Shown here: positions 37,602-45,200 of the stretch, piece by piece
How the letters are laid out: each line of letters opens with the position of its first letter
How positions within the stretch are numbered: position 1 is the stretch's first letter
Origin: Utricularia gibba
Lineage: Eukaryota > Streptophyta > Magnoliopsida > Lamiales > Lentibulariaceae
Direction: 5' to 3'
DNA length: 64,000 bases
Assembly (NCBI GenBank): GCA_002189035.1
Contig: CM007989.1
Span: 2,790,001-2,854,000 of the forward strand
Notes under the pieces: generated by a model
Databases searched by the model: none
What the model saw: the letters and a program-made list of their open reading frames with translations, nothing else
Told to the model about the DNA's origin: nothing
Made by a program: the position numbers and the translations under genes

Positions 37602-40600
37602 ATGGGTAGTGTAATGAGAAATAAGGTGCAGAGGAAGTTCAAAATGAGGGGTTATACGCTGAAAATTGACGCAATGTCTGAGGTTTTAAGGTTTCTTGGC
37701 GGCTTCCCTGAAGCTGAAGATGAAGCCCTTGAGCTCCTCCTTGACGAGCTCCACCAACATTCTTGTAACTCACTGAAGCAATTGTTTTTTTTTTTTTGGC
37801 TGTTTATTGTGGGTCTCGAGATGTGAGTCTGATTTATGGCGTTTCAGTGACATCCTCGATTTTGGATAAGGAGCCGGTGGAAAAGGTGGTTAGTCATTTG
37901 CTGAAGTGCGAGTTTCTTGACGAGGAGAACCCAACAGCCGGTGGTGGTTATGCCTCCAGTTCCAAAGATTTGAGAATAATTGATGCATTTGATTTTCCAA
38001 AGTTTCGCTATGATCCAATCAAGAAACAGTTTCACGTGTACGTTTTGCTTTGTTTTATAATTGTCTTCACAATGCTCGTGTTTTTATTTTATTTTTATTA
38101 TGGGTACTATTGGAACGATTCTTTTACTCCAATTTTTTTTCATTTTGGATTCGTAAGTGCAGCTGCATTCCTATAGATGTGTAAAAGTCTCATCTTATGC
38201 CATAGCTGTAGTTCTAGAATTCAAATATTTTTGCAGAATCACCCTTAAATATGCAGTTTATGGAGATGCTTTCACAAATAAATTCAAACTCCCTAATTCT
38301 AAATTTGTGTAGATTTACAGGAAATTATGCAGTTCATGGTGATGCATCTCAAAAGGTGTTGCTTTACCGGGATAGGTTTCTCCTGTTGTCGCAGAGGCTC
38401 CTTCATGATCCTCATTTTGCCAAACCTGTTTTTGAGAGTGATGCATCAGTATCTGGTAGCTGCCAGGTATTATGAACCTGTCAGCTTTGATACAGCCACG
38501 AGAAGCTGTTATCTGATAAAGAAGGTTTTATCCTGGATTTTCTTTAATGTGATTGCATTTTCAGATAGTTCAAATTCAATCTCTGGTTGGTCAAACTGGA
38601 AAAAAATGGATTATGGGTCTAATATCACAGCTGGAGGACAGTCATTTTTACTTGGAAGACTTGACTGCTGCTGTGGAAGTCGATCTGTCGGATGCAATAT
38701 CCTTTCTAACCCCTTTGAATGCATTGATCTCTGTGTGTCTCTGTATTTTCATGATGTAAATGGTCTGAATTCGTATTATACGTTGGTGGATAATATGAAA
38801 TATGTCGTTATGCCTTAACATGAACTACAAAGTTACAACTGGACTTTTTGTGGAAAATACCATTGTGCTGGCAGAAGGAGAAATGACTTTGGATGGTATC
38901 TTTCGGGTATATACTTTCCATCCATTGAGACATTTAGATTGCACTTTCCTACTTTTTGTTCCTCTAAACCTGGTGTGTAAAGTTCTTCAGTGATTGTTTA
39001 TAGGTAAAAACATGCGGGTTTCCTCCCCTTGAGGACCGTGTGAAGTCCTTAGCTATGTTTTCTGGAAGAGACTTTTTTGGTGGTGGTTCACTTTCAAAAG
39101 AGGAGACTGTATCCTTTGTAGTTATTTAATTTTAGAGATACGCATGAATTTTTTTCCACAATATATGTTGGAGGGTATTCCATGACGCATGAGTATAGAT
39201 TAGACTTACAGAGCTTGAAAGAGACTCAGTGAATGATATGTTTGTTATACTTTCCAATGTCTGTCTGGATAATGAACAGGTAATTTCCAATGCTCCTTCA
39301 GTGTTTTCTTCTCGATGCCTCTAATATATTTTCTGATTTATCGTCTTATTTCGAGAAGACAATGGAAAAACTACAGATCATTCTTCGAGGCTACGAGAAC
39401 GAAAGTGTTGTTCCATCCCTTTTTGTTATGATGGGCAACTTCTGCTCTCGTCCTTGCAACCTTTCATTTAATTCCTACTCAAGCATAAGGTGAGCGAAGG
39501 CAGGATGCTCTCAAATTTGTTATTGTCATCTTTGGTACATGAAGCAAATGACATTAGCTTCCTTTGCAGGCATCAGTTTGGTAAGCTAGGAAAGATGGTT
39601 GCTGCTCATCAGCGCCTTAAAGCACATAGCATATTTCTTTTTATTCCTGGTCCTGATGATTTAGGTGATCTGCCTGATTATACTCTTGGTTTTCTTGGTC
39701 GATAAAATAAAATCCCTTCTTTCCTTGGCATGTATTGCTACTTATACAATTTCTTAATTCAGATGCTTTGTAATCTCAGGACCTTCGGATGCTCTGCCTA
39801 GATGCTCACTACCGAAACACATAACCGAAGAGTTTTTGAATCACATTCCCAATGCAGCCTTTTTGAGTAATCCATGCAGGTCTATTTCTATACTAAATCG
39901 CCAAGACAGAAAACTAGATTTCCAGGAGGATGCTCTGTTGTCTGTGCTTGCTCACTTTTCTCTCATATTCTCCATGACTTGGAAAACTACATAGGAATGC
40001 ATGCTGTGATGCTGTACCTTTATGATTAGCTTTGTTTTTCTTCATTTCTGCAATGAACAGAGATAACAATTTTTTTTTTCTTTGGAAACCAAACCAGGGT
40101 CAAGTATTACACTCAGGAAATAGTATTTTTTCGGCAAGATCTGCTATACCGAATGCGCAGGTCGTGCCTGATGCCGCCTTCAACAGAAGAAACAACTGAT
40201 CTATTTGAGCATGTACGTTCTTCAACATCCTTAATCCCTCCTTCAACTGATGATCATCAACTCCCTTTTTCTCTCTTACAGCTCATTGCAACTATAACAC
40301 ATCAAAGTCACCTGTGCCCTTTACCACTGAGCATACAGCCCATCATCTGGGGCCATGATCATTGTCTTCAAATCTATCCAACTCCACATACGGTAAAGCA
40401 GTCCTTTTTCCAAATACAACATCATGACCATGAGTTCTTATTTGGTTCGTCGAACTTGGGATGAATGTTTACAGATTGTGCTTGGGGATAACAGTGAGCA
40501 GAAGGCATTCCAGTATACAGGAATTACATGCTTCAATCCTGGATCCTTCTCAAGAGATTTCACGTTTGCGGTATATCGACCTTCCTCTAAAGAGGTTGAA

Positions 40601-40615
40601 TTGTCAGCTGTCTGA
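37602..40615 (+). CDS. DPB2: DNA polymerase epsilon subunit B (DPB2 / POLE2)
   Basis: This is the essential non-catalytic B subunit of the leading-strand DNA polymerase epsilon, acting in the nucleus. Thirteen exons: 37602-37764, 37848-38037, 38313-38466, 38565-38696, 38829-38906, 39004-39108, 39199-39279, 39359-39489, 39570-39664, 39780-39879, 40098-40212, 40282-40392, 40475-40615; 531 codons (Arabidopsis about 526). Landmarks: N-terminal helical domain (GYTLKIDAMSEVLRFL), OB fold (VGQTGKKWIMGLISQLEDSH, ENTIVLAEGE), and the inactive calcineurin-like phosphoesterase domain (PSLFVMMGNFCSRPCNLSF, IFLFIPGPDD, ITHQSHLCPLPL, GITCFNPGSFSRD), ending KEVELSAV. Two introns carry U12-type signals (38697-38828 and 39109-39198), and the start of exon 3 is partly duplicated upstream (from 38237). 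The exon 2 donor at 38038 was chosen over one 2 nt upstream because it keeps the frame. Confidence 0.95.
38237..38262 (+). repeat. Partial duplicate of the DPB2 exon 3 start, with its own acceptor
   Basis: After TTTTTGCAG (ending 38236) the sequence AAATATGCAGTTTATGG at about 38246 is a near copy of AAATTATGCAGTTCATGG in true exon 3, followed by GAGATGC against TGATGC. It lies about 75 bp upstream of the functional acceptor. Confidence 0.75.
38697..38828 (+). other. U12-type AT-AC intron of DPB2
   Basis: The intron starts ATATCCTTTC, the consensus 5' site of minor-spliceosome AT-AC introns. It ends CCTTAACATGAACTAC, with a U12 branch-site-like CCTTAAC (38813-38819) about 10 nt before the terminal AC. 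Removing these 132 nt joins DLSDA to KVTTGLFVENT, exactly the family sequence (DLSKAKITTGFF in Arabidopsis). No GT-AG choice does this. Confidence 0.88.
39109..39198 (+). other. U12-type GT-AG intron of DPB2
   Basis: The intron starts GTATCCTTTG, the U12 GT-AG 5' consensus. It contains TTCCATGAC (39178-39186), one mismatch from TTCCTTRAC, with the branch A about 13 nt before the AG at 39198. Splicing joins SLSKEET to IRLTELERDS, matching the family. Confidence 0.82.
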
Positions 40616-42288: not shown

Positions 42289-45200
42289 ATGCAGAGCCAA
42301 GAACAGTGCGATTTCTCCGGGGACCGGCAAGCCTATAGTGGGCCGTTGAACAAGAGGGGTTCTCGGAAAAGCGCAAGGTTTAGTCTTCCCGAGAGCCCCA
42401 CTTCACCGGAAGATTACTTGGAGATTACTCTCGACGTGAATGAGAACTCGGTGGCGGTGCACAGCGTGAAAGCAGCCGGCGGAGGCGACCTCGAGGATCC
42501 GGAGCTGCGGCTATTGGCTAGGGGGTTGGAGAGAAAAAATTCCTTGGTTAGAAATGCTTCCTCGAGGATGAACCAAGTGTCCCTGGAAGTAAAGAAGTTT
42601 GCTACCCTCACACGCCGCCCACACCCGGCCGCCGTCGACCGAACCAATTCCGGCGCCGCACGCGCTCTCAAGGGGCTGAAGTTCATCAGCCAGAGTGACG
42701 ACGGCGCTGCCTGGGCCGCCGTGGAGAAACGGTTTGATCAGCTGACGGCCCCTACCAGTGGTCTCCTTTCGCGTCGACTCTTTGGAGAATGCATAGGTAA
42801 AATTGCATTGCACATATTAAACATGCAACAAACAACTTCAAAACGCTGTCGTTCAGGAATGAACAAGGAATCCAACGAGTTCGCCGGAGAACTCTTCGAC
42901 GCGCTTTCACGGCGGAGGAACATTTCGCCGGACGCCAACATCGACAAAGCTCAGCTGAGGGAATTTTGGGATCAGATTTGTGATAAAAGTTTTGATTCAA
43001 GGCTTCAAACATTCTTCGACATGTGAGACCCCGTCCTTGTAACATGAGAATATTATCATCATCTCCCACTTCCCATGATTGGCTTGCACAACTTATACCT
43101 TGTCCATGGGTATTTTTTTACGAAAAAAAATTAAATGCTGGAATAAATTATACTAAACTTATGAGAAATAACCTTACCTTATTGTACTCAGGGTGGACAA
43201 AGATGCTGATGGAATCATTACAGAAGATGAAGTCCGGGAGGTGCACGAGCTCTCATTTCTCAATCTATTGCGAGGTTGTCTTTTCCCAATTTTTCTATTT
43301 CATTTTTTTATTAATATCGTTGGCTTGTTTCAGATCATCAGCTTGAGTGCTTCAGCCAACAAACTAACCAACATCCAGATGCAAGCAGATGAGTACGCGA
43401 GGTTGATCATGGAGGAGCTGGATCCTGCTGATCTAGGCTACATCAGGGTAGTTTCTGTGTAACTTTACTTGATTTTTAACCAGTCAATTGTCTGTAACTA
43501 AAATTTAACTGCTGTCAAAACATGTAAATAGATCGACGATCTCGAAATGCTGCTACTACAAGGGACGGCTGGATGTGGAGGCGGCCGCGGCCGCGGCGGC
43601 GATAGTCGAAACCTGAGCAAAATATTGAGCGAAAAGCTGAAGCCGGTACACGACCCTTGGATTCGGAGGTCCTTGCGCGCTGTTACATACTTTTTTCAAG
43701 ATTATTGGAAGAGGGTCTGGGTGATAGTTCTGTGGATCGGAATCATGGCTGGACTCTTCGCATGGAAATACGTTCAATATCGGCGTCGTGCTGCGTACCA
43801 TGTCATGGGAGCCTGCGTGTGCATGGCTAAGGGTGCGGCCGAGACTCTGAAGCTCAACATGGCCATCATCTTGCTTCCTGTGTGCCGGAATGCGATCACT
43901 TGGCTCCGTAACAAGACGAAGCTCGGTGCCGCCATCCCTTTCGACGACAGCCTCAACTTCCACAAGGCAAGATCACAGGGAGTGTCTAAAATGCTTTCGG
44001 TTTTTCTGTAATATGCTTGCGCTTCGTTGTCAGGTTATCGCAGCAGCAATAGGAGTTGGGGTTGCGATCCATGCCCTAAGCCACTTGACGTGCGACTTCC
44101 CTCGACTACTGGAAGCGTCACCGGAGCGATATGCTCCGATGAAACCATACTTCGGATCGCAGCCGAGGTCGTACTGGTGGTTCCTTCGGGGATGGGAAGG
44201 AGTGACCGGAGTCATCATGGTGGTCTTGATGGCGATCGCCTTCACGTTGGCATCGCCATGGTTCCGCAGAGGCAGAGTGAAGTTACCAAAACCCTTGAAG
44301 CAGTTCTCCGGGTTCAATGCCTTCTGGTATTCCCATCACCTCTTCGCCATCGTCTACATTTGCTACATCATTCATGGCATCAAGCTCTACTTGACCCACG
44401 AATGGTACAAGAAAACTGTAAGTTGAGCATCAACACTTTTCGAAAGCAACTGGAACCATTAAACTCAGTTGCTACTCCTCTGTGAATTCAGACATGGATG
44501 TACTTGGCTATCCCCCTCCTGCTCTACACGGGCGAAAGGTTGACGAGGGCGTTTCGATCCAGCATCAAATCTGTCCAGATCTTGCAGGTACCACAATATT
44601 TCTACAAATCAAGATAATTTTTTTGAGTTCCATATCGATGTTTTTAGAACAGCGGTATTAAATTTCAGGTGGCCGTGTACCCTGGCAACGTGATGGCTCT
44701 ACACATGTCAAAACCGCAGGGATTCAAATACAGAAGTGGACAATACCTCTTCCTTAACTGTCCCAAAATTTCCTCCTTTGAATGGTAATAGATACGATTT
44801 TGAAGAAAAAAGGATGAGAGCCGTTGGATTAAACCTTTTTTGTTTGTATATATACATAAATTGCTAGGCATCCATTCTCCATTACCTCTGCACCAGGAGA
44901 TGATTATGTGAGTGTCTACATTCGAGCAGCTGGAGATTGGACAAGACAACTTAGAGCTGTTTTTTCTGAGGTAATTTATTTTTGCCGACTTTTGTTATTG
45001 AAAAATGGTGAAAAACTTATTTTTCAGGTATGTCAACCACCTCCGACCGGCATGAGCGGTCTTCTCCGGGCAGAATGCAGGCCCGGAGAGGGCAACAGAA
45101 AGTAAGTGGCCTCTGTCATTCTGTGTTTCTGCACTGCTGGTGAAAAGAGATCGTTATGACTTGAAACATCACACAGCTTTCCCAAGTTAATGCTTGATGG

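Follow-up and report, generated by a model that had tools for sequence, protein, structure and literature searches.

Gene model

The window, meaning the whole 64,000-nucleotide stretch of DNA that was analysed, contains a gene for DNA polymerase epsilon subunit B (DPB2), and we built a splice model over the whole gene. The parts that matter for what follows are:

37602-40615, + strand: DPB2 gene, 13 coding exons, 531 aa
38565-38696, + strand: exon 4, phase 0, last residues ...SDA
38829-38906, + strand: exon 5, first residues KVTTGLF

The joined exons form an uninterrupted reading frame of 531 codons. In phmmer searches the product matched human POLE2 over residues 5-529 (E 6.7e-91) and also matched yeast Dpb2 (E 9e-40), and both Pfam domains, Dpoe2NT and DNA_pol_E_B, scored above their cut-offs. 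With both domains and similarity along its full length, the predicted product falls within the DPB2/POLE2 family. A family search found one further match, on contig C411, besides the gene in the window. The adjoining gene, from window position 42290 onward, resembles a gene for a respiratory burst oxidase (RBOH), judged by eye from the translated frames.

A predicted AT-AC intron between exons 4 and 5

The first-pass annotation had called 38697-38828 a minor-spliceosome AT-AC intron with CCTTAAC about 10 nt before its end, and the sequence is as it described. The intron begins ATATCCTTTC and ends ...CCTTAACATGAACTAC, and we recognise the following features:

38697-38828, + strand: intron 4, predicted AT-AC U12-type, 132 nt, assigned from its signals and from frame restoration
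38697-38705, + strand: predicted U12-type 5' splice site ATATCCTTT, 9/9 against [AG]TATCCTTT
38813-38819, + strand: predicted U12-type branch site CCTTAAC, with the branch A at 38818 and the final base of the intron 10 nt further on
38827-38828, + strand: predicted 3' splice site AC (TAC), the sole plausible acceptor with a gapless family peptide

The 9-nt branch region, TGCCTTAAC, agrees with the consensus at 8/9 positions, with G at one flanking position. We also compared these signals with the genome's own small nuclear RNAs. The donor gave a predicted duplex of -11.3 with U6atac and -6.2 with U11, and the branch site gave one of -5.6 with the GUAAGG region of U12. U12-type AT-AC introns are expected to have no strong polypyrimidine tract ahead of the acceptor. 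Here the 22 nt preceding the last three of the intron are 55% pyrimidine and 32% T, and several U2-type introns of DPB2 are no richer.

From base composition, we put the probability that the donor 9-mer and the branch 7-mer both fall where they are needed at about 3e-8, rising to 4e-7 when all 12 introns are counted. Our genome-wide searches covered 100.09 Mb in 516 contigs, and over the whole 100-Mb genome the two-part AT-AC motif had 5 matches against 6 in a reversed control, which is no excess. Since the motif pair alone is at chance level genome-wide, the evidence lies in its exact coincidence with the gap in the coding sequence. Elsewhere in the window, [AG]TATCC[TA]T sites lacked a branch site and acceptor at a short, intron-like distance, with a few weak ones 0.9-3 kb off.

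Alternative junctions

The peptide reads in frame across the junction as ...VEVDLSDA|KVTTGLFVEN..., and LEDLTAAVEVDLSDA|KVTTGLFVENTIVLAEG aligns with human POLE2 with zero gaps, which bears out the earlier statement that splicing here restores the family peptide. The alignment with yeast Dpb2 has a one-residue gap nearby. To compare junctions, we scored all in-frame, stop-free pairs (n=5334) against human POLE2. The AT-AC junction 38696|38829 scored 302 and was tied second among the 5334. The top score, 305, went to a CC-AG pair whose sites are implausible. A TA-CA pair is a one-base slide of the same junction and gives an identical mRNA, but it is unlike known splice sites, and only AT-AC matches them. 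GC-AG alternatives were tried in the same enumeration and rejected. We also rejected two other acceptors for intron 4. With the AC ending at 38825, the protein gains one Tyr and the acceptor sits too near the branch A, at a distance of 7 nt; with the AG ending at 38832, the reading frame is lost and translation soon meets a stop.

The best GT-AG pair scored 284 and carried 12 extra residues, so the earlier claim that no GT-AG choice restores the peptide also stands. A U2-type GT-AG intron at this place would use GT 38737 or GT 38743 with the AG ending at 38832. These pairs do keep the frame, but they insert 12-14 residues, lose 18-20 points in the comparison with human POLE2, and give no account of the U12 branch site or of the donor that agrees with the U12 consensus at 9/9 positions, and we consider such an intron very improbable.

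Intron 6, a further predicted U12-type intron

Two introns downstream of the AT-AC intron 4, the gene has another intron with U12-type signals, which the first-pass annotation had not mentioned:

39109-39198, + strand: intron 6, predicted U12-type GT-AG, 90 nt, donor GTATCCTTT 9/9, branch site TTCCATGAC 8/9

Its branch A lies 13 nt before the end of the intron (AG). It is the best-scoring canonical junction there, and the joined peptide is EET|IRLTELE. Intron 6 falls after codon 274 and intron 4 after codon 213, both in phase 0. The donors of the remaining 10 introns (other than 4 and 6) agree with the U12-type consensus at 3-6 of 9 positions. U12 introns tend significantly to cluster in the same genes (PMC7367187).

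Intron 6 also bears on which machinery would remove intron 4. Major-spliceosome AT-AC introns exist, 85 of them having been examined in human cells (PMC8280824), and intron 4 could in principle be one of these. However, its donor ATATCCTTT and the CCTTAAC 10 nt from its end form a U12 signature, and the gene's GT-AG intron 6, further downstream, is of the U12 type too, which makes removal by the major (U2-type) spliceosome a very slim prospect. Slimmer still is the idea that the copy in the window is a non-functional DPB2 fragment whose junction is free of selection, for which we found no support and which is at odds with a full-length 531-aa frame, 12 clean introns and both Pfam domains.

Minor spliceosome components in the genome

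Three minor-spliceosome RNAs scored above their Rfam cut-offs in the genome: U12 (86 bits), U6atac (87 bits) and U11 (74 bits). For U4atac, the genome search gave only matches below the Rfam cut-off. One of these, L020 (G000 C98:104875-105020, - strand), has the promoter element TCCCACATCG and TATAAATA, with spacing similar to that in the three other snRNA genes, and its predicted pairing with the genome's U6atac is extensive (-47.4 kcal/mol by duplex fold). We take L020 to be a probable U4atac gene despite its score below the Rfam cut-off. We rejected two other candidates, L019 and L021, because they are missing the plant snRNA promoter element; L019 is also tRNA-like by eye.

Among the proteins, we found a CENATAC domain spread over three exons, and one DIM1-family locus is TXNL4B-like, matching TXNL4B at 89.7 bits, compared with 33.3 bits for TXNL4A, the major paralogue. 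TXNL4B is the main partner of CENATAC, and depletion of CENATAC in human cells affected 92% of A-type minor introns (PMC8280824). A second DIM1/TXNL4A-like copy (L008, L010 and L013, G000 C414 near 1901848-1902361) has its pieces in different frames and is possibly a decayed duplicate. Taken together, U12, U6atac, U11, the U4atac candidate, CENATAC and the TXNL4B-like protein point to a minor spliceosome in this organism.

Outside the window, an AT-AC match on the - strand (L016, G000 C244:2505942-2506080) lies exactly at a junction in a TopBP1-like BRCT gene. The joined BRCT peptide outscores either half, and this is likely another AT-AC U12-type intron, interrupting the TopBP1-like BRCT domain.

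Interpretation

The first-pass annotation's reading of a minor-spliceosome intron in DPB2 agrees with the sequence tests, and the genome encodes minor-spliceosome RNAs and AT-AC-linked proteins. On this evidence we believe, with a probability of about 0.96, that intron 4 is a U12-dependent AT-AC intron and that the machinery acting on it also has intron 6, with its GT-AG ends, as a substrate. We infer from the DNA that both introns are actually spliced, and likewise any effect on expression.

In the mechanism that we propose, U11 and then U6atac would recognise the donor of intron 4, and U12 would pair with CCTTAAC and leave the branch adenosine bulged. A lariat would then form, and the AC that lies 10 nt past the branch A would be the point at which exons 4 and 5 are joined, with the reading frame restored. 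Because intron 4 starts with A, CENATAC and TXNL4B/DROL1 would help in its removal. The GT-AG intron 6 would be removed by the same minor-spliceosome machinery.

Translation of the retained-intron frames gives a stop after 233 codons if intron 4 is retained and after 280 if intron 6 is. In Arabidopsis, excess DPB2 is harmful and its loss is embryo-lethal (PMC6801657). Because retention of either intron stops translation early and DPB2 excess is harmful in Arabidopsis, the two minor introns, one AT-AC and one GT-AG, could be read as a conserved brake, linking the dosage of the replication polymerase to the activity of the minor spliceosome. We regard this as unlikely; a dosage role of some kind for the two introns is possible, if unsupported.

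The main use of the intron pair is in correcting annotation, since a gene finder that accepts only GT-AG introns would get exon 4 or exon 5 wrong. An AT-AC intron beside a GT-AG one in a single transcript would also serve as an internal control for factors specific to AT-AC introns. Here a small plant genome has both minor-intron subtypes together in a single gene that is essential for replication, and the case is clean and checkable.

Comparison with known systems

Among the papers that we searched, none gave a U12 call for plant DPB2 (AT5G22110), although databases might still carry one. Mouse Pole2 is among the genes with U12 introns that are affected in Zrsr mutant embryos (PMC7312986). 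It is the orthologous gene, and the likeness drawn here is at the level of the gene.

U12-type AT-AC introns are defined by a ATATCCTT donor, an AC end and, 10-15 nt ahead of the acceptor, a branch site resembling TCCTTAAC (PMC2426677). When tested against this type, with a spacing of about 10-20 nt allowed before the 3' splice site, intron 4 has the ATATCCTT donor, a TCCTTAAC-like branch site whose branch A is 10 nt from the end, and an in-frame AC. It thus shares with known introns of the class the donor, the branch site and its spacing, and the AC end, and it lies in frame in an information-processing gene. Its only departure is the G at the flanking branch position, which is nothing notable. 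Intron 6 is alike to U12-type GT-AG introns in its donor and branch site, and differs by one branch-site mismatch.

The first-pass annotation was wrong to call AT-AC introns a very small minority of U12 introns, because in plants they make up 13-26% of the U12-type set: 26% in Arabidopsis, 23% in soybean, 22% in rice and 13% in maize (PMC7367187). Both U12-type introns of this DPB2 gene are ordinary for plants.
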